NCBI GenBank assembly: GCA_947038515.1
Contig: CAMQWJ010000007.1
Span: 1-64,000, forward strand
Source of the DNA: an uncultured Fusobacteriaceae bacterium
GTDB taxonomy: Bacteria > Fusobacteriota > Fusobacteriia > Fusobacteriales > Fusobacteriaceae
Direction: 5' to 3'
DNA: 64,000 nt
Shown here piece by piece: positions 22,021-31,435 of this stretch. Position numbers and translations under genes: made by a program. The notes beneath the pieces are model-generated. The model searched no databases and was not told the origin of the DNA. It saw nothing but the letters and a program-made list of their open reading frames with translations. Position 1 is the stretch's first letter, and every line of letters begins with the position of its first letter.

Positions 22021-23295
22021 ATGAAAAAATTAATATTTCTTACTTATATAATAGTAAGTACATTTATTTATACAACAGAAAAAAATGCTTATAAATATCC
22101 TTATGAAAATAGATATGAATCAACTATATTGGGTGGGTCTACTCTTATGTTAGACTATCCTTTACCAAAAGTGAAAAATAAGGAATATTCTATTAAGATA
22201 AATCCTACAGAGAGTATTCCAAAAAATTTATGGTATCAAGAAGGATTTAAATTTTCTTTAGCGAAACAAAAAAATACTGCCCCTTTAATATTTGTTATCG
22301 CTGGAACAGGCTCTTCCCATGATAGTTTGAAAATGAAATATTTAGAAAGAATTTTTCATAATAAAGGATATCATGTTATATCGATTTCTTCTCCAATGTA
22401 TATTAACTTTCTTTTAAATGCTGGAACTGAAAAAGTTCCAGGATTACTAATGCCTGATAGTCAAGATATTTATAAAGTAATGGATTTAGCATATAAAAAA
22501 GTCAAAAATAAAATCTCTGTTACTGATTTTTATTTAACGGGATATTCTCTAGGAGCATCCCAAGCAGCATTTGTTTCTTATATTGATGAAAAGGAAAAAA
22601 AGTTTAATTTTAAAAGAGTATTTATGATAAATCCCACAGTGGACCTATATTCATCAGCACTTATTTTTGATGAGATGCTAAAAGAAAGTACTAATAATGA
22701 TAAAAAAAATATTGGTGTTTTAATAAAAGAAATGCTGTTACAAATTTCAAAAGTCACTTCGGATGGGGATATTAGTATAGATGAAGAAAAAATATTTTCT
22801 GCTTTTAAAGAGAAAAAAATTTCATATAAAAAAATGAAATCATTAATTGCTCTATCTTTTAGAATGATTTCCATTGATTTATCATATTTATCAGATCTTA
22901 TTTCTCATTCTGGTCTATATAGTAAAGAATTTGACAATAAAAAATATCCTGATATGTTTAGTATCTATGAAAAAATGAATTTCCCTTCATTTGAAGAATA
23001 TTTTGAAAATATAGCTGTGCCATATTATCAAAAACAAGGATATTCAAGAAGTGATATTTTAGAGAAAGCAAAAATAAATACAATTGAAAAATATTTAAAA
23101 AAATCGGAAAAAATAATGGTTGTAACTAATGATGATGAATTAATTTTAACTTCAAAAGAAATAAAATACTTGGAAACAATTTTCAAAGATAGATTTAAAA
23201 CTTATCCTTTGGGTGGACATTGTGGAAATATGTTTTATACTGAAAATGTAGAAATTATGCTAAAATTTTTACAAAAGGGGATGAAAAAAGAATGA
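22021..23295 (+). CDS. Exported alpha/beta-hydrolase, possible lipase
   Basis: 424 residues with an N-terminal signal peptide (about 1-18). The catalytic frame is visible: oxyanion region VIAGTGSSHDS (about 92-102), nucleophile elbow GYSLGAS with Ser176, and a late His in LGGHCGNMFY. Likely acts in the periplasm or outer membrane on an ester or lipid. Its stop overlaps the start of the MlaA-like gene (ATGA), so the two are coupled. This pairing suggests phospholipid turnover at the outer membrane, which is inference. Confidence 0.8.
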   Translation: MKKLIFLTYIIVSTFIYTTEKNAYKYPYENRYESTILGGSTLMLDYPLPKVKNKEYSIKINPTESIPKNLWYQEGFKFSLAKQKNTAPLIFVIAGTGSSHDSLKMKYLERIFHNKGYHVISISSPMYINFLLNAGTEKVPGLLMPDSQDIYKVMDLAYKKVKNKISVTDFYLTGYSLGASQAAFVSYIDEKEKKFNFKRVFMINPTVDLYSSALIFDEMLKESTNNDKKNIGVLIKEMLLQISKVTSDGDISIDEEKIFSAFKEKKISYKKMKSLIALSFRMISIDLSYLSDLISHSGLYSKEFDNKKYPDMFSIYEKMNFPSFEEYFENIAVPYYQKQGYSRSDILEKAKINTIEKYLKKSEKIMVVTNDDELILTSKEIKYLETIFKDRFKTYPLGGHCGNMFYTENVEIMLKFLQKGMKKE

Positions 23296-24017
23296 ATATA
23301 AAAGTCATATTTTCTATTTGTATATTCATGTTAATTTCTAAAGGTTCTTACAGTAATACTACAAATAAAGAGCAAACTACTACTAGTTTTATGGAAGTTT
23401 ATGATCCTTGGTATGGACTTAATAAACGAATGTATACTTTTAATTATTATGCTGATAAATATGGAATTTTACCTGTAGCTGATTTCTATAAAAATATTGT
23501 TCCAATAGTCGGACAAAAAGGTATTACTAATTTTTACACTAATCTCTCTTATATTGAAACAGTGACTAGTGCTACACTTCAAGGAAAAATAGCAAAAGGT
23601 ATGCGAGGACTTGGAAGATTAAGTATTAATTCTATTTTAGGACTGGGCGGACTTTTTGATGTAGCTGAGAAATTGGAAATGCCTCAAGAAAATGAAGACT
23701 TTGGGCTATTACTTGCAAACTATGGAGTTGGAGCAGGTCCTTATTTAATAGTTCCATTTATGGGGCCATCTAATCTAAGAGATTTACTAGGAAAAGGAAT
23801 GGGACTTTCTCTTGGAATTTTTACTAGTCCTCTTTCTTCTATTTATATCGGTTCTTATCCTTCAATGGGAGCTTTTGCTATTGAGAGTATTAATTGGAGA
23901 AATGAAATCAAATTTAGGCACTATGGGACTTCTACTCCCTTTGAATATGAATATTTAAGATTTTATTATAATGAAATAAGATATTTAGAAGAAAATGCAG
24001 ATAAAAAGGAAAATTAA
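23292..24017 (+). CDS. mlaA: MlaA (VacJ)-family phospholipid transport protein
   Basis: MlaA removes phospholipids from the outer leaflet of the outer membrane in the Mla pathway. Family hallmarks: DPWYGLNKRMYTFNYYADKY, then KGMRGLGRLSINSILGLGGLFDVA and DFGLLLANYGVGAGPYLIVPFMGPS. 241 residues. The N-terminal signal (1-20) has no lipobox cysteine at its predicted end (only Cys10, preceded by Ile), unlike the lipoprotein MlaA of E. coli. No mlaBCDEF genes are in the window. Overlaps the hydrolase gene by 4 bp. Confidence 0.93.
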   Translation: MNIKVIFSICIFMLISKGSYSNTTNKEQTTTSFMEVYDPWYGLNKRMYTFNYYADKYGILPVADFYKNIVPIVGQKGITNFYTNLSYIETVTSATLQGKIAKGMRGLGRLSINSILGLGGLFDVAEKLEMPQENEDFGLLLANYGVGAGPYLIVPFMGPSNLRDLLGKGMGLSLGIFTSPLSSIYIGSYPSMGAFAIESINWRNEIKFRHYGTSTPFEYEYLRFYYNEIRYLEENADKKEN

Positions 24018-24018
24018 A

Positions 24019-24888
24019 ATGGTCTGGAAAAAAATAACGATTGAAAGTAAAAAAATAATTAATGAATATTTAAAAAATAAATTTCTAATATGTGATTATA
24101 ATTTTACTAATTTACTTCTATGGAGTGAGGGAGATAATATTGAATTTTTTGAAAATGGAGAGCTACTTTTTTTAAGGGGAAACTATTTAGGAAAAAATAC
24201 TTATTTTATGCCAGTTTCAAAAACTAATGATATTTCTAATGTTAAGTTTGGAATTAATAAAATATTGTCATTGGGAGAAGAGATTCATTTGATTCCTGAA
24301 GAATGGAAAAATATTTTGTCTGATTTTTATATTTTTACCGAAAAAGAAGATAATTTTGATTATATGTATAATATAGCCTCTTTGATAACATTAGAAGGAA
24401 GAAAATATAATAAAAAAAAAAATAAATTAAATTTTTTCAAAAAAAATTATGATTTTAAATATCATAAAATTACAAAAGAAAATATTTCTCGAGTTAATAA
24501 TTTTCAAAATTTTTGGTGTTTAAAAAAAGAATGTGAAAAAAATAGAGATCTCTTTAATGAAAACTTAGGGATAAAATATCTTATTGATAATTATAGTGAA
24601 TTAGATATAAAAGGTGGATTTATAGAGGTTGATGGTAAAGTAATAGCCTATTCTTTTGGAGAAGTTATTAATGAAGATATTGTAGTAATTCATATAGAAA
24701 AAGCTGATGAAAATTATAAAGGGAGTTATCAAGCAATTAATGCTATTTTTTTAGAAAAAGAATGGCAAGGATATACCTTTGTTAATAGAGAAGATGACGC
24801 AGGTATTTTAGGAATTAGAATAGCTAAAAGTTCATATTTACCAGAAAAAATGTTGAAAAAATATTCTCTTATTTCAGTAAAAATATAA
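24019..24888 (+). CDS. Stand-alone LPG-synthase C-terminal domain protein (DUF2156-like)
   Basis: 289 residues resembling the soluble aminoacyl-transferase domain of phosphatidylglycerol lysyltransferase (MprF), without the membrane flippase part. Supporting segments: TLEGRKYNKKKNKLNFFKKNY, GGFIEVDGKVIAYSFGE, and VNREDDAGILGIRIAKSSY near the C-terminus, all characteristic of the family. It probably moves an aminoacyl group from tRNA to a lipid or other acceptor, but the substrate is unknown. A frame opens at 23995; AAGGA before the ATG at 24019, one base after the mlaA stop, gives the start. Confidence 0.82.
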   Translation: MVWKKITIESKKIINEYLKNKFLICDYNFTNLLLWSEGDNIEFFENGELLFLRGNYLGKNTYFMPVSKTNDISNVKFGINKILSLGEEIHLIPEEWKNILSDFYIFTEKEDNFDYMYNIASLITLEGRKYNKKKNKLNFFKKNYDFKYHKITKENISRVNNFQNFWCLKKECEKNRDLFNENLGIKYLIDNYSELDIKGGFIEVDGKVIAYSFGEVINEDIVVIHIEKADENYKGSYQAINAIFLEKEWQGYTFVNREDDAGILGIRIAKSSYLPEKMLKKYSLISVKI

Positions 24889-24999
24889 CAAAATAATTAT
24901 AAAAATAATTTTACTATATTTTGCTAAGGTAGATAAAAATACTTATCTTGAAAAATAAATAAAATTTTCTAAATTTATAGATATAAATTGAGGGGTTGT

Positions 25000-26127
25000 A
25001 TGGAAGAAAAAAAAGAAAGAGCTATAATTTTTTCTGGGGGAGGCTCAAGATTTGCAATTTATGCTGGAATATATGCAGCATTGGAAGAATTGGGTCATAA
25101 GCCTGATTTAATTATAGGAAGTTGTGGCGGTGGAATGGCCACGAATATAATTAGCTCTTTTGAAACCAATATAGAAAGAAAAGAATATCTGAAATCTTTA
25201 GAATTTTATAATTTTATAAAAAAATTTTCTCTTACAAAAGAAAGAAAATTATATAAAATAGGATTAGATTTTAAAATAAGAGGAATAAGAAATAAAAAAA
25301 ATAATTATATAGAAGATATTTTTAATAAATATTTACTAGATATTCCTGAAAATGTAGAAGATTTTCTTCCAATATTGGCAAAGAGTCAAGGACCATATAT
25401 TTCCAATATAATAATTGGTTCAAAAATATTATTTAATAAATTTGAAGTTGGAGAAAAAGTTAATGGAAGAAAACTTTATAAAGAAATCTATATGACTGAT
25501 ATAAAAACTAAAAAACTAATAGAAGAAAATTGGTTATCTCAAAAGTCAAAAATCTTTTTAAATAGTTCTCTCTCTGAAAAAATAGAGATTAGAACGGATA
25601 TTCCTCTATTAAAAGCTTCAAGAATATCAGTTTCTGATATATTTTATACTAATCCTGTTTTCTATAATGGAGAAAATTTTAGTGGTGGATTTGTAGATTT
25701 AATTCCTATAGAATTAGCAAAATCATTATCAAAAGAAGTTATTTTAGAGTTAAAACAAAAATATAAAAAAATAGAAGAAATTGCACTTATATCCACAGTT
25801 GGTTATAGTGGAAATGAAAGAATGCGAGAAGTACATGATTTTAATGCTGATTATTGGATAGATACTTCAGATGCTGCAAAAAATTTAAAAGGTAGCTATA
25901 TAAGTACTAAGATTAATTTATTTAAATTTCAAGTAGAATTATCTATTCCAGAAACCTATGAAAAATATAAAAATGATGTTGATATCCAATGGGATTATGG
26001 TTATCAACGTGGAAAAGAAGCTATTTTAAGTGGGAAAAATAACAAAAAAAAGATGAGAGATGCAAATTTTTTAAATACATCAGAAGAATTTAGAAATAAA
26101 AGGAATTTATCAGGGGGGAAAAATTGA
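25000..26127 (+). CDS. Patatin-like protein lacking canonical catalytic residues
   Basis: Patatin/phospholipase fold: glycine-rich oxyanion loop FSGGGSRFAIYAGIYAALEE (about 11-30) and the nucleophile elbow position IIGSCGGGM. The usual GxSxG reads G-S-C-G-G, so Cys42 stands where the catalytic Ser should be. The usual DGG dyad motif reads SGG (228-230) followed by VD233. 375 residues. Start at ATG 25000, 4-5 nt after GAGGGG; an upstream in-frame TTG contains that SD. Follows a 111-bp gap after the DUF2156-like gene and overlaps the SDR start (TTGA). Confidence 0.82.
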   Translation: MEEKKERAIIFSGGGSRFAIYAGIYAALEELGHKPDLIIGSCGGGMATNIISSFETNIERKEYLKSLEFYNFIKKFSLTKERKLYKIGLDFKIRGIRNKKNNYIEDIFNKYLLDIPENVEDFLPILAKSQGPYISNIIIGSKILFNKFEVGEKVNGRKLYKEIYMTDIKTKKLIEENWLSQKSKIFLNSSLSEKIEIRTDIPLLKASRISVSDIFYTNPVFYNGENFSGGFVDLIPIELAKSLSKEVILELKQKYKKIEEIALISTVGYSGNERMREVHDFNADYWIDTSDAAKNLKGSYISTKINLFKFQVELSIPETYEKYKNDVDIQWDYGYQRGKEAILSGKNNKKKMRDANFLNTSEEFRNKRNLSGGKN

Positions 26128-26861
26128 AAATATTTATAGCAGGTGGGACTTCAGGGATAGGACTTGCAGTTGCTAAAAGATATCTAAATAATGGACATAA
26201 TGTAGCAATTTGTGGACGTAATCAAGACAGAATAGATAAAATAGAAAAAAGTGATAATTTAAAAATTTATAAACTTGATATTTATGACAATGAAAAATTT
26301 ATAGGAGCAGTGAAGGACTTTTCACATGGTGAACTAGATATCATGTTAGTAGCAGCAGGTAGTTATGGAAATAGTCGAACTAAAAAATTATCTCTAATGG
26401 AAGCTACTAACATGCTCAAAACAAATATTGTTTCTACAGTTAATGCTTTTGAAATTGCAAGGAAATTAATGATCCCCAGGGGAAAAGGACATATTGTGGC
26501 AATATCATCTGTAGCAGCATTATTAGATTATCCAGGGTGTTCTGTCTATAGTAAGACAAAAAGGATAGTAATTAACTTATGTGAAGCTTATAGAGCAGCA
26601 TTATCTGATTATGGAATAAAAGTAACAGCTATTATTCCAGGATATATTGATACATTGAAATTGAGAGAAATAAGTGGTGATGTATCTAATAAACCATTTA
26701 TCATGAGTGAAGAAAATGCTGCTAAAATTATAATAGACAGTATAGAAAAAAATGTAGATAGAGTAATTTTTCCTAAAAAAATGAAAGTTCTTATTTCTAT
26801 TCTTTCATTATTACCTAAAAAAATACTAAGTTTAATATTATTGAGAAAAAAAAATGGATAA
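26124..26861 (+). CDS. Short-chain dehydrogenase/reductase
   Basis: NAD(P)-dependent oxidoreductase of 245 residues. Rossmann motif GGTSGIG at the N-terminus, NNAG-equivalent as VAAGSYG, catalytic Ser in AISSVAA and YSKTK (YxxxK). The last 30 residues are hydrophobic and basic (MKVLISILSLLPKKILSLILL), suggesting membrane association. TTG start with CAGGGGGG upstream; TTGA overlap with the patatin-like gene. Within the lipid cluster it may reduce a keto-lipid intermediate (inference). Confidence 0.88.
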   Translation: MKIFIAGGTSGIGLAVAKRYLNNGHNVAICGRNQDRIDKIEKSDNLKIYKLDIYDNEKFIGAVKDFSHGELDIMLVAAGSYGNSRTKKLSLMEATNMLKTNIVSTVNAFEIARKLMIPRGKGHIVAISSVAALLDYPGCSVYSKTKRIVINLCEAYRAALSDYGIKVTAIIPGYIDTLKLREISGDVSNKPFIMSEENAAKIIIDSIEKNVDRVIFPKKMKVLISILSLLPKKILSLILLRKKNG

Positions 26862-28161
26862 TATAAAAAAAAAATTAAAAAAACAAAGTTTTTTCCTCAT
26901 GTTAGCAAGTTATTTTGTTTTTATTTTCTTGTATCAAAGTTCTGGAATATATACTTCTAAACTAAATGATGTTCCCTCTATATATATGAGGTGGGAAAAG
27001 AATATCCCTTTTATTTCTTGGCTTATAATTCCCTATATGAGTTCAGGAATCTTTTTTATAGCAATATTTTTTATGTGTAAAACAAAAGAACGTCTCTACT
27101 GGTTAGTTAAACAAATAAATATAATAACAATAACATCCACAATAATATTTTTTCTCTTTCCTCTGCAATTTGCATTTGAAAAACCTGAAGTAAATAATAG
27201 AGTAATTGGATTTCTTTTTAAAAATCTTTCTGAATTAGATACTATTTTTAATCTATGTCCTTCACTTCATATTAGTTATGCTATTATATTTACTTTAATA
27301 TTTTATAAAGAAATAAGAAGTAAAATAAAATATATATTTTATTTATGGTTTTTTTTGTTAAGTATATCTACTATTTTTATTTATCAACACCATATAATAG
27401 ATGTAATTTGCTCCCTATTTTTAGTTTTAACAACCTTATTTATTTTTCCCGAAAATAGCAACGATCGGGAAAAAAGAAGTAGAAAAATAGGATTTATATA
27501 TTTATTTTTTAGTCTCACATTATTTACTCTAGGACTCCTATTTCTTAATTGGAGTATATTATTATTAGTTCCTTCTCTATCTCTTTTCTTAGTGGGAAAA
27601 ACCTATATAGAAAATAATCCAAGCCTTATTAAAAAAAGAGGACATATTAAATTTTGTAATAAATTATTATATTTTCCCTATTTATTTTGTTATAATATTT
27701 TATGGAAATATTTTAGAAAATATGAAGGGGAACCCTGGAAAGAGCTCGTACCAAATCTTTTTATTGGATCAAAACTAAATAATGAACAATCTAAAAAATT
27801 TGGATATGATAAAAAAATTATAATTATTGATTTATCAGTAGAAGCAGAAGAAAACAGTGTTTTAATCAAAAATAATGAGTATTATTCTTTTCCTTTTTTA
27901 GATATTTGTGAATTAGAAGAAACTGCATTTTTAACTGCACTTGAATTAGTGATAAAAAAATATAATAATTTAGAACACAATGAAAAAATATATATTCATT
28001 GCTTAATGGGTTATTCAAGAAGCGTGGCTTTAGCAATTGCTTTTTTAAAGAAAAATTATAAGATGGATAATTTAGAAGCTAGTTTAATAGTAAAAAAACT
28101 AATTAAAAATTCAGTTATTCCAGATTATATAATACAATCAATTAACAAAATAAAATTATAA
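26854..28161 (+). CDS. ynbD: YnbD-like membrane PAP2 phosphatase fused to dual-specificity phosphatase
   Basis: 435 residues. N-terminal multi-spanning PAP2-type part (about 15-245) with CPSLHISYA and YQHHIIDVI, matching the SxxH...HxxxD arrangement of lipid phosphatases; C-terminal cytosolic dual-specificity phosphatase domain with the P-loop HCLMGYSR (Cys383, Arg389). The same two-domain build and size as E. coli YnbD. Overlaps the SDR gene by 8 bp and lacks a strong ribosome site, so translation is probably coupled. Suggested role: dephosphorylating a phosphatidyl-alcohol phosphate made by the YnbA-like enzyme. Confidence 0.85.
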   Translation: MDNIKKKLKKQSFFLMLASYFVFIFLYQSSGIYTSKLNDVPSIYMRWEKNIPFISWLIIPYMSSGIFFIAIFFMCKTKERLYWLVKQINIITITSTIIFFLFPLQFAFEKPEVNNRVIGFLFKNLSELDTIFNLCPSLHISYAIIFTLIFYKEIRSKIKYIFYLWFFLLSISTIFIYQHHIIDVICSLFLVLTTLFIFPENSNDREKRSRKIGFIYLFFSLTLFTLGLLFLNWSILLLVPSLSLFLVGKTYIENNPSLIKKRGHIKFCNKLLYFPYLFCYNILWKYFRKYEGEPWKELVPNLFIGSKLNNEQSKKFGYDKKIIIIDLSVEAEENSVLIKNNEYYSFPFLDICELEETAFLTALELVIKKYNNLEHNEKIYIHCLMGYSRSVALAIAFLKKNYKMDNLEASLIVKKLIKNSVIPDYIIQSINKIKL

Positions 28162-28177
28162 TAAGGAGAAGTTGATA

Positions 28178-29875
28178 ATGAGTAATACTTTTAAAACTTT
28201 TGATAATAATGATATTTTTTATAGAACTTGGAATTTCCAGAAGGATAAAAAGACCATAGTTCTAATTCATAGGGGACATGAACATTCTCAAAGATTAGAA
28301 AATTTTGCCTTGGATAAAAAATTTGAAAATTTTAATATATTTTCATATGATTTACGAGGTCATGGATATACTAAAGCTGAAAGTTCTCCAAATTTTATGG
28401 ATTATGTACGGGATTTGAATGAATTTATAACTTTTATAAAAAAAGAATATGAAATACTTGAAGAAGAAATTTTTATTGTAGCTAACAGTATTGGAGGAGT
28501 TATTGTAACAGGTTGGGTACATGATTATGCCCCTAAAATTGCTGGAATGGCACTTCTTGCTCCTGCATTTAGTATAAAACTATATGTTCCTTTTGCTAAA
28601 GAATTTATTTCTCTTTTGACAAAATTTAATAAGAATGCAAAAGTACCAAGTTATGTAAAATCTAAGGTTTTAACTCATGATATAGAAGAGCAAAAGAAAT
28701 ATGATTTAGATAAATTAATTACTAAAGATATTGGTGCAAGTTTATTAGTCGATTTTCTTGAACACGGTAAGAGAATAAGCAATGATTCAGGAGCTATTGA
28801 AATTCCTACTCTAGTTTTTTCTGCTGGAAAAGATTATGTTGTAAAAAATACTCCACAAAAAGAATTTTATTTAAATTTAGAATCAGAGTTAAAAGAGTTT
28901 ATTGAGCTTAAAGATTGTTATCATGGAATTATGTTTGAGAAGAACAGGGAAGAGGTTTATGAAAAGATAAGTGAATTTATAGATAAGAGTTTTTCTAGAG
29001 AAAAAGAAACTATAACTATAAAACCAGAAAAATTTTCTAAAAAAGAGTATGATATTATTTTACTAAAAATGATTTCATTAAAAGAAAAAATTTCTTTTTC
29101 AATTCAAAGAACATTATTAAATAAAATAGGAAACTTAAGTGCGGGAATGGCAATTGGTTTAGAAGAAGGGTTTGATTCAGGTTCTTCTCTTGATTATGTA
29201 TATAAAAACGAACCTAGTGGAAAATCTATAATTGGAAAAAGTCTAGATAAATATTATTTAAATGAAATTGGTTGGGTAGGGATAAGAGATAGAAAAAGAA
29301 ATTTTCTTGAGATAATAAGAGAAAAAATACAGACATACCCTAATAAAGATATAAAGATATTAGATATTGCTGGAGGAGTTGGAAACTATATTTTTGACTT
29401 GAAAAAAGAATTTCCTGAGATTAGTTTTATAATAAACGAATTTAAAAAGAGTAATATTGAAAAGGGAGAAAAAGTAATAGCTGAAAATTCATGGGATAAT
29501 ATAAAATTTACTAATTTTGATTGTTTTGATATAGAAACATATAAAAAGATAAATTTTGAACCAGATATAGTAATAATTTCTGGAATATTTGAATTATTTA
29601 GTGATAATAAAATGTTAAACAGTGCACTAAAAGGTATTGATAATATTCTTAAAAAAGATGGATGTATAATCTATACTGGACAACCTTGGCACCCACAATT
29701 AAATAAAATAGCTTTTGTCTTAAATAATCATAGAGAAGGTAAATGGATTATGAGAAGAAGAAGTCAAAAAGAATTAGATAATATTTTTAGATATAATGGA
29801 TTTGAAAAAAATAAAATGCTTATAGATAATTTTGGAATTTTTACAGTTTCACTAGCTGAAAAGGGGAAAAAATAA
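28178..29875 (+). CDS. ynbC: YnbC-like alpha/beta hydrolase fused to SAM methyltransferase
   Basis: 565 residues, two catalytic domains. N-terminal hydrolase (about 1-270): RGHEHSQR, DLRGHGYT and nucleophile elbow VANSIGGVI, as in monoacylglycerol lipase-type enzymes. C-terminal class I methyltransferase (about 370-560): ILDIAGGVGNYIFDL (SAM motif I). Domain order and length match E. coli YnbC (recalled about 585 residues). A TTG at 28172 is in frame, but GGAG is 9 nt from the ATG at 28178 and only 3 nt from the TTG. Stop overlaps the ynbA-like start as TAATG. Confidence 0.86.
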   Translation: MSNTFKTFDNNDIFYRTWNFQKDKKTIVLIHRGHEHSQRLENFALDKKFENFNIFSYDLRGHGYTKAESSPNFMDYVRDLNEFITFIKKEYEILEEEIFIVANSIGGVIVTGWVHDYAPKIAGMALLAPAFSIKLYVPFAKEFISLLTKFNKNAKVPSYVKSKVLTHDIEEQKKYDLDKLITKDIGASLLVDFLEHGKRISNDSGAIEIPTLVFSAGKDYVVKNTPQKEFYLNLESELKEFIELKDCYHGIMFEKNREEVYEKISEFIDKSFSREKETITIKPEKFSKKEYDIILLKMISLKEKISFSIQRTLLNKIGNLSAGMAIGLEEGFDSGSSLDYVYKNEPSGKSIIGKSLDKYYLNEIGWVGIRDRKRNFLEIIREKIQTYPNKDIKILDIAGGVGNYIFDLKKEFPEISFIINEFKKSNIEKGEKVIAENSWDNIKFTNFDCFDIETYKKINFEPDIVIISGIFELFSDNKMLNSALKGIDNILKKDGCIIYTGQPWHPQLNKIAFVLNNHREGKWIMRRRSQKELDNIFRYNGFEKNKMLIDNFGIFTVSLAEKGKK

Positions 29876-30477
29876 TGCAATTTTCAATATATAATTTAAA
29901 AAATAAATTTCAAGATTTATTAATGCCATTATGTAAAAAAATAAATTTATATGGGATAACTCCAAATCAGATAACAGTAATGACTACTATTTTTAGTATA
30001 ACTTTTTCAATAATATTTTATAAATTTTCTAATAAAGATAGTTGGTTATTTATATCGATTCCAATATTCTTTTTAATAAGAATGGCATTGAATGCTTTGG
30101 ATGGAATGATAGCAAATAGATTTGATAAAAAAACTAAGTTAGGAATTTACTTTAATGAAATAGGGGATTTAATTTCAGATACTGTCTTCTTTTTCTGTTT
30201 TTTTTCTGTCTTAAATTTAAGCAATACTCTCTCTCTTGTTTTTATTTTTATCTCTATTCTTTCTGAATATGTTGGAGTAATTGGAGTACAAGTGGATAAT
30301 AAAAGACATTATGAGGGACCTATGGGTAAAAGTGATAGAGCATTTTTTATTAGTATATTATCTATTTTAATTTTTTATGGTATAGAAATGAAATATATAA
30401 AAGTTTTTATAATCTTTTCTATTCTTTTATTACTATCAACTGTATATAATCGAATAAAAAATTCATTAACAAATTAG
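29875..30477 (+). CDS. ynbA: YnbA-like CDP-alcohol phosphatidyltransferase
   Basis: 200-residue integral membrane enzyme that would join a CDP-diacylglycerol to an alcohol. The family signature is present in altered form: RMALNALDGMIANR, then LGIYFNEIGDLISD. Compared with DxxDGxxAR...GxxxDxxxD, the first and third Asp are Asn. The substrate-side motif GPMGKSDRAF follows. The same N-for-D pattern and GKSDRA are, as I recall, in E. coli YnbA, so this is a subfamily feature rather than decay. Confidence 0.87.
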   Translation: MQFSIYNLKNKFQDLLMPLCKKINLYGITPNQITVMTTIFSITFSIIFYKFSNKDSWLFISIPIFFLIRMALNALDGMIANRFDKKTKLGIYFNEIGDLISDTVFFFCFFSVLNLSNTLSLVFIFISILSEYVGVIGVQVDNKRHYEGPMGKSDRAFFISILSILIFYGIEMKYIKVFIIFSILLLLSTVYNRIKNSLTN

Positions 30478-30493
30478 AGTACAAGGGGAAAAG

Positions 30494-31348
30494 ATGAGAG
30501 ATTCATATATATTTATATTTTTAATATTTATAGCAACTATAAGTTATAGCATGATATTCTTATTCAGAAAAAGTTTAAGTGCCAGTCGTTACTTAAATCT
30601 CTGTCAAAGGATAAAAACTTGGTATCTCATAATTGGGATGCTCTATTTAGGAAGTAGAAATAAAATTCTTATAGTTTTTTTATTTATCTTTATATCATAC
30701 TTAGCAATGATAGAGTTTTTAGAACTTTTTGATCTTAAACTAGATTTAGTTAAAAAAACAAGTATTATATTAGTAATAGCTATACATTACTTTTTCCTAT
30801 ATAAAAATATATTATATGCTTTTTATTTTTTTATTCCTACCCTAATTGTGATAATATTTATATTTTTAAAAAAAAGAAATGAGGTATCTTTAGGTCTCAT
30901 CTCAACAGTTTATTTAATTAGTTATCTTCCATATCTAATTAACACAAAAATAGGAATTACTGGAATAATAGTGTATATTATTCTTGTGGAACTAAATGAT
31001 ATTTATCAGTATATTTCAGGTACCATTTTTGGTAAAATAAAAATAGTGCCTAAAACAAGTCCTAATAAGACATTAGAAGGTATTTTAGGTGGTATATTTC
31101 TATTGACTATAACAATATTTGTTTTAAATAAATCTTTTGATTACAAAATAAATATTTGGTTAGGAAGTGTAATTGGAATAGTTGGATTTTTAGGTGATAT
31201 TTATATTTCATATTTTAAAAGAAAAAATAATAAAAAAGATTCTGGAAGAATACTTTCAGGACATGGAGGAATATTAGATAGAATAGATAGCTTAATCTTT
31301 ACTTCCCCCCTTATTATGGTAACAATAGTATTTTTTGGTAATCAATAG
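30494..31348 (+). CDS. ynbB: YnbB-like phosphatidate cytidylyltransferase (CdsA family)
   Basis: 284-residue multi-spanning membrane protein. The C-terminal CdsA signature is clear: SYFKRKNNKKDSGRILSGHGG followed by ILDRIDS. It would make a CDP-activated lipid for the YnbA-like enzyme. Pairing a CdsA paralogue with a CDP-alcohol transferase inside one operon implies a dedicated lipid head-group pathway separate from the housekeeping cdsA, which is not in this window. Last gene of the lipid cluster; no obvious terminator before the ptsH promoter. Confidence 0.9.
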   Translation: MRDSYIFIFLIFIATISYSMIFLFRKSLSASRYLNLCQRIKTWYLIIGMLYLGSRNKILIVFLFIFISYLAMIEFLELFDLKLDLVKKTSIILVIAIHYFFLYKNILYAFYFFIPTLIVIIFIFLKKRNEVSLGLISTVYLISYLPYLINTKIGITGIIVYIILVELNDIYQYISGTIFGKIKIVPKTSPNKTLEGILGGIFLLTITIFVLNKSFDYKINIWLGSVIGIVGFLGDIYISYFKRKNNKKDSGRILSGHGGILDRIDSLIFTSPLIMVTIVFFGNQ

Positions 31349-31370
31349 TATTGATACCTTTATAAAATAC

Positions 31371-31399
31371 TTGATTTTTATAATAAAATTTGTTAAGAT
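31371..31399 (+). promoter_or_regulatory. Sigma70-type promoter for ptsH
   Basis: TTGATT, 17-bp spacer, TAAGAT, ending 36 bp before the ptsH ATG. Confidence 0.6.
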
Positions 31400-31435
31400 G
31401 TAGTTGAAAGATTTTAAATTATAAAGGAGTGAAAT

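Follow-up and report, generated by a model that had tools for sequence, protein, structure and literature searches.

Two neighbouring lipid gene units, a predicted MlaYZ disposal pair and an accessory ynb cassette, in a Fusobacteriota genome

Conservation and synteny of the two units

We analysed a 64,000-nucleotide stretch of DNA (CAMQWJ010000007.1, positions 1 to 64,000; hereafter the window) belonging to contig 7 of a 1.78 Mb Fusobacteriota genome, in which nine consecutive plus-strand open reading frames at 22021-31348 are of lipid-related type. These genes likely form two functionally separate neighbouring units: genes 1-2 (22021..24017), homologues of mlaY and mlaZ that would destroy lipid, and genes 4-9 (25000..31348), a ynb cassette that would make one. 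Genes 1-2 are an old pair of most Fusobacteriota, predicted to dispose of outer-membrane lipid, while genes 4-9 are an accessory block. An earlier note on this DNA had joined all nine genes into a single pathway for an unusual phospholipid. The nine genes are present at the coordinates it gave, and its domain calls held when compared with Pfam. The note had also held that a lack of conservation of the upstream genes beside ynb in relatives would speak against a single pathway, and this is what we found for genes 1-3.

The phylum survey covered 98 Fusobacteriota genomes, some of them incomplete, and adjacency was judged by reading gene coordinates from the search tables. The YnbC methyltransferase family was observed in 5 of the 98 genomes. 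A close orthologue of gene 4, which encodes a patatin-like protein, was observed in precisely the same five, a co-occurrence with a chance probability of ~1.5e-8 if kinship is ignored, three of the five genomes being from one genus. The Fusobacteriota carriers share the order patatin-SDR-ynbD-ynbC-ynbA-ynbB, with gene 5, a short-chain dehydrogenase/reductase (SDR), present in all five cassettes and ynbD missing from one (G052). The MlaA family and the gene 1 hydrolase were found in 77 and 78 genomes, respectively. The four other ynb carriers have genes 1-2 far from the cassette or on a different contig.

We treat the units as separate because the cassette is confined to so few genomes when compared with genes 1-2, and because two congeners (G001 and G002) lack it at exactly this site. 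Both congeners read polC-ilvA-mlaY-mlaZ-gene3-ptsH-ptsI without ynb genes, on contigs that are unbroken through the site. The spacer between gene 3 and ptsH in these genomes is roughly 115-150 bp, and the six cassette genes of the window occupy exactly that spacer. Relative to the congeners, the 111-bp gap at 24889 (24889..24999) is the left edge of the six-gene cassette, and its right edge lies before ptsH (31349..31435). The earlier proposal that the upstream genes belong with ynb is therefore retained for the patatin-like and SDR genes, which adjoin ynb in all five carriers, but not for genes 1-3, which run straight into ptsH in the congeners.

The mlaYZ pair

Gene 1 (22021..23295, plus strand) encodes an exported alpha/beta hydrolase with a GYSLG motif, and is a predicted periplasmic phospholipase. 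Its Pfam match to the lipase/alpha-beta hydrolase families was weak and below the cut-off, and a PDB sequence search with the gene-1 profile returned only weak alpha/beta-hydrolase matches. Gene 2 (23292..24017, plus strand), which overlaps gene 1 by 4 bp, belongs to the MlaA family (PF04333, 1.4e-50). The Pseudomonas aeruginosa proteins PA3238/PA3239 have been named MlaY/MlaZ; in the proposed mechanism, MlaZ hands mislocalised phospholipid over to MlaY, a lipase, which destroys it (PMC11131202, PMC12569750, PMC11977310; the gene-number order of the two is ambiguous within PMC11977310).

Searching with the Fusobacteriota gene-1 profile gave strong matches in two Pseudomonas genomes (E-values of 7.5e-114 and 4.1e-111), each likewise overlapping an MlaA-family gene, and annotated replicons of P. 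aeruginosa and Skermanella show the same arrangement of hydrolase and MlaA-family gene. Gene 1 was 33% identical to its P. aeruginosa relative and gene 2 was 36% identical to the VacJ-family partner, the compared pair being plasmid-borne and equated with PA3238/PA3239 by residue numbering and gene order. The catalytic Ser and His of gene 1 align with the reported Ser187 and His415, and D372 aligns with D387, the neighbour of the reported D388. All three residues (S176, D372 and H400) are conserved across 55 Fusobacteriota sequences. By these likenesses we identify genes 1-2 as MlaYZ, with gene 1 the predicted phospholipase. If the Pseudomonas mechanism carries over to this organism, as we infer, the MlaA-type outer-membrane protein encoded by gene 2 would pass mislocalised outer-leaflet phospholipid to the adjacent exported serine hydrolase encoded by gene 1, which would destroy the phospholipid it receives.

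The mlaY and mlaZ genes were adjacent on one strand in 76 of the 77 MlaA-bearing Fusobacteriota genomes (the exception being G016), and in sampled loci they overlapped or were separated by a gap of ≤4 bp. In one genome (G012; locus L127 on contig G012:C16, 194-2239, minus strand) the two genes are fused into one frame of 681 residues, composed of a signal peptide, the hydrolase, a proline-rich linker and an MlaA domain without its own signal peptide. This natural fusion supports a direct coupling of MlaY and MlaZ, which would then act in one compartment. No lipobox Cys was present in the signal sequence of gene 2, nor in those of many other Fusobacteriota MlaA-family proteins, so many of these proteins, including gene 2, may not be lipoproteins.

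The usual view places MlaA at the start of Mla retrograde transport. A search of all 98 Fusobacteriota genomes yielded no MlaC, although the positive controls from E. coli and Caulobacter were detected. MlaD was above the cut-off in four genomes (G025, G026, G041 and G097), and in all four both MlaA and the hydrolase of gene 1 were missing, so that MlaD and this pair exclude one another. Because MlaC was not observed in the phylum and MlaD occurred only where MlaA was missing, MlaYZ looks like the only MlaA-type route of the phylum, one that is hydrolytic and operates without MlaC/MlaD return transport to the inner membrane. The canonical Mla pathway (MlaABCDEF) has an MlaA-family protein in common with this locus, but was ruled out by the lack of MlaC, and of MlaD in MlaA-bearing genomes. 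With the P. aeruginosa MlaYZ the locus shares an exported alpha/beta hydrolase beside an MlaA-family gene, and the Fusobacteriota differ from it in having no MlaC, no MlaD beside MlaA, no lipobox in gene 2, and one fused pair.

The main text of a published survey of the distribution of Mla components makes no mention of Fusobacteria (PMC10665443), and we found nothing direct in the literature on MlaA in Fusobacteria. Since the 77 genomes keep an MlaA-family gene without MlaC/MlaD, nearly always beside a predicted lipase, the Fusobacteriota present a clean setting in which to ask whether hydrolysis alone holds outer-membrane asymmetry.

Variations in the surroundings of mlaYZ were also observed. 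The pair is duplicated in tandem in one locus (L102, G024:C20, at about 6-10.3 kb), and TolC/RND-type efflux genes follow mlaYZ on the same strand both there and in a second locus (L096, from G069). In Skermanella (L152 and L153) RND genes lie upstream of mlaYZ, and a TamB-domain gene follows it. One possibility is that such efflux neighbours export lipid breakdown products.

The ynb cassette

Genes 6 to 9 aligned over the full length with E. coli K-12 YnbD (29% identity), YnbC (38%), YnbA (33%) and YnbB (34%), bearing out the names given to the last four genes in the earlier note. All four proteins of E. coli ynbABCD are therefore present here, but the gene order is D-C-A-B in place of A-B-C-D, and the patatin-like and SDR genes are additions of the Fusobacteriota cassette. 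A search of species genomes returned 541 YnbC relatives, and the best 80 of these were examined. They came from Pseudomonadota, Acidobacteriota, Verrucomicrobiota, Planctomycetota and others, and the majority cluster with ynbA, ynbB and ynbD. A further family was observed in 39 loci, the one member tested being a PlsC-type acyltransferase, and short proteins without a Pfam match were also common. Many Pseudomonadota ynb loci carry such a PlsC-type partner, whereas the Fusobacteriota cassette has none. Outside Fusobacteriota, the loci examined showed no patatin partner, and SDR gave one weak match only. Our literature search found no functional study of ynbA, ynbC or ynbD, and nothing direct on ynb function.

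YnbA (gene 8; 29875..30477, plus strand) is a homologue of CDP-alcohol phosphotransferases (CDP-OH_P_transf, 8e-10, above the cut-off) with an altered signature. In alignments drawn from loci chosen for strong YnbC matches, the first and third Asp of the signature D-x2-D-G-x2-A-R-x8-G-x3-D-x3-D were replaced by Asn in 73 of 73 YnbA sequences that have this region (N73 and N94 in the window), and the AR of the signature reads AN in the window protein. YnbA thus departs from the signature, and we know of no description of this Asn-for-Asp form. Three further acidic residues (D76, D98 and D102) are invariant. YnbA is an additional member of its family in this genome: three other CDP-alcohol phosphotransferases are encoded, and two of these score higher, as housekeeping enzymes would be expected to.

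The best solved-structure sequence match of the YnbA profile was the Mycobacterium tuberculosis PIP synthase (MtPIPS), in which mutation has shown R155 and R195 to be important for inositol phosphate binding (PMC4634129). R155 and R193 of YnbA align with these two arginines and are both invariant in 74 sequences. Because they match the acceptor-phosphate arginines of MtPIPS, the alignment suggests that the acceptor of YnbA is phosphorylated. YnbA differs from MtPIPS in its two signature Asn and in showing no aligned Lys at the position of K135, so inositol need not be its head group. An inositol head group was accordingly left unsupported, an inositol-phosphate synthase not having been searched for. 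In YnbA, the arginines of the phosphate site suggest that the head-group donor is phosphorylated, and the invariant Asn residues suggest a catalytic oddity.

YnbB (gene 9; 30494..31348, plus strand) is a CdsA-like cytidylyltransferase (CTP_transf_1, 2e-44) in which the CdsA C-terminal signature S-x2-KR...KD-x-G...GHGG-x2-DR-x-D is fully present. In E. coli, YnbB overproduction raised the level of MPIase, yet YnbB did not replace cdsA (PMC6362211). YnbC (gene 7; 28178..29875, plus strand) joins a monoglyceride-lipase-like hydrolase (Hydrolase_4) to a Methyltransf_20 domain (6e-88). Its structural model had a pLDDT of 91.6, and the best folds for the N-terminal domain were monoglyceride lipases. 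YnbD (gene 6; 26854..28161, plus strand) combines a PAP2-type membrane phosphatase with a dual-specificity phosphatase domain (Pfam PAP2 plus DSPc; HCLMGYSR). PTPMT1, a phosphatidylglycerophosphate phosphatase, was among the many relatives of similar score of the latter domain, and from this likeness dephosphorylation by YnbD would follow naturally.

The SDR (gene 5; 26124..26861, plus strand; adh_short, PF00106, 1.5e-35) has both its nucleotide-binding GxxxGxG (GGTSGIG) and its YxxxK (YSKTK) intact. The patatin-like protein (gene 4; 25000..26127, plus strand; Patatin, PF01734, 4e-12) is missing the Ser-Asp dyad (GxSxG, DG[GA]), the window reading GSCGG, with Cys42 for the nucleophile Ser, and SGG. 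An alignment of all five homologues showed Cys for the nucleophile in each, and Ser, Ala or Phe for the Asp. The Pfam assignment stands, but since the catalytic dyad is lost, ordinary patatin hydrolysis by gene 4 is doubtful.

Proposed function and alternative explanations

In the best-supported reading, the cassette would make a minor modified phospholipid via a phosphatidyl-X-phosphate, and we infer every reaction assigned to genes 4-9 from their observed gene content, conservation, context and residue patterns. YnbB would convert phosphatidate to CDP-diacylglycerol, which YnbA would couple with a phosphorylated alcohol. YnbD would strip the phosphate from the YnbA product and YnbC would methylate, and deacylate or remodel, while the SDR and the patatin-derived protein would process a precursor. 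We put forward tentatively, and with less confidence than the two-unit explanation as a whole, the combined proposal that the cassette leads to an undescribed phospholipid by way of an Asn-metal-motif CDP-alcohol phosphotransferase and a cysteine-nucleophile patatin derivative, and that the phylum, separately, keeps its asymmetry by MlaYZ destruction without MlaC/MlaD retrograde transport. Several points weigh against these views. The loss of two signature Asp from YnbA and of the dyad from the patatin-like protein makes the cassette chemistry uncertain, and in E. coli both MPIase and growth were little affected by deletion of ynbB (PMC6362211). The MlaA-bearing genomes were without MlaC/MlaD, but MlaE and MlaF were not searched for. 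At the locus itself, the window cassette lies directly upstream of ptsHI and that of G052 (L088, G052:C48) ~3.4 kb downstream of ptsHI. Because the G052 cassette is also near ptsHI, a gain here and a loss in the congeners are both possible.

An explanation in which no new lipid is made seems unlikely, though it is the strongest of the alternatives. YnbA and the patatin-like protein would be catalytically dead or repurposed, as their replaced residues (73 of 73 and five of five members, respectively) would allow, and the set would regulate or remodel an existing phospholipid, for example by supplying the MPIase anchor or turning it over; E. coli YnbB can contribute to this anchor, judging from the overproduction result (PMC6362211). 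The full CdsA signature of YnbB argues otherwise, as do the invariant D76, D98, D102, R155 and R193 of YnbA, which speak for retained chemistry, and the PlsC-type acyltransferase found with many Pseudomonadota versions of ynb. For genes 1-2, a role in lipid delivery or scaffolding instead of destruction is improbable given the conserved Ser-Asp-His of gene 1 and the homology to a system with a proposed lipase role; what would leave room for it is that both the direction and the activity of the pair in Fusobacteriota are taken over from Pseudomonas. Least probable of all is a single dedicated pathway in which the nine genes together produce an unusual phospholipid and place it in the outer membrane, an explanation that we reject on phylum-wide conservation and congener synteny. 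A common strand, close spacing, lipid-related domains throughout and the lack of a terminator between the units are all in keeping with it, but most of the phylum has genes 1-3 without ynb, and the four further ynb carriers have them at other locations. Gene 1 moreover resembles a lipid-destroying enzyme, and as a predicted phospholipase it would dispose of lipid where the earlier note had given it a lipid-making step.

Gene 3 and locus layout

Gene 3 (23995..24888, plus strand) encodes 297 residues with a lone LPG_synthase_C domain (PF09924, 6e-39). It matches only the C-terminal domain of lysyl-phosphatidylglycerol synthase of the MprF type, and differs from that enzyme in missing the N-terminal membrane flippase domain. 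The family was observed in 42 of the 98 genomes, in some of them next to mlaYZ or close by and in others at a different place, a loose link to mlaYZ and none to ynb. The domain call for this gene stood, and the aminoacyl transfer previously ascribed to it was taken from the domain name.

The intergenic gaps between the nine genes were, in order, -4, -23, +111, -4, -8, +16, -1 and +16 bp, assuming ATG starts at 25000 for gene 4 and 28178 for gene 7. No terminator-like sites were found between the nine genes, promoter-like sites across the locus showed no excess over chance in a scan of this AT-rich DNA, and no Rfam RNAs were found in the window. The GC content at third codon positions was even along the locus and the same on both sides of the junction between gene 3 and the cassette, so composition shows no sign of recent foreign origin. 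Among the replicons compared, NZ_CP084075.1 (L154) of Fusobacterium vincentii, 2.1 Mb in length, is recorded as a plasmid but by its size looks like a chromosome.

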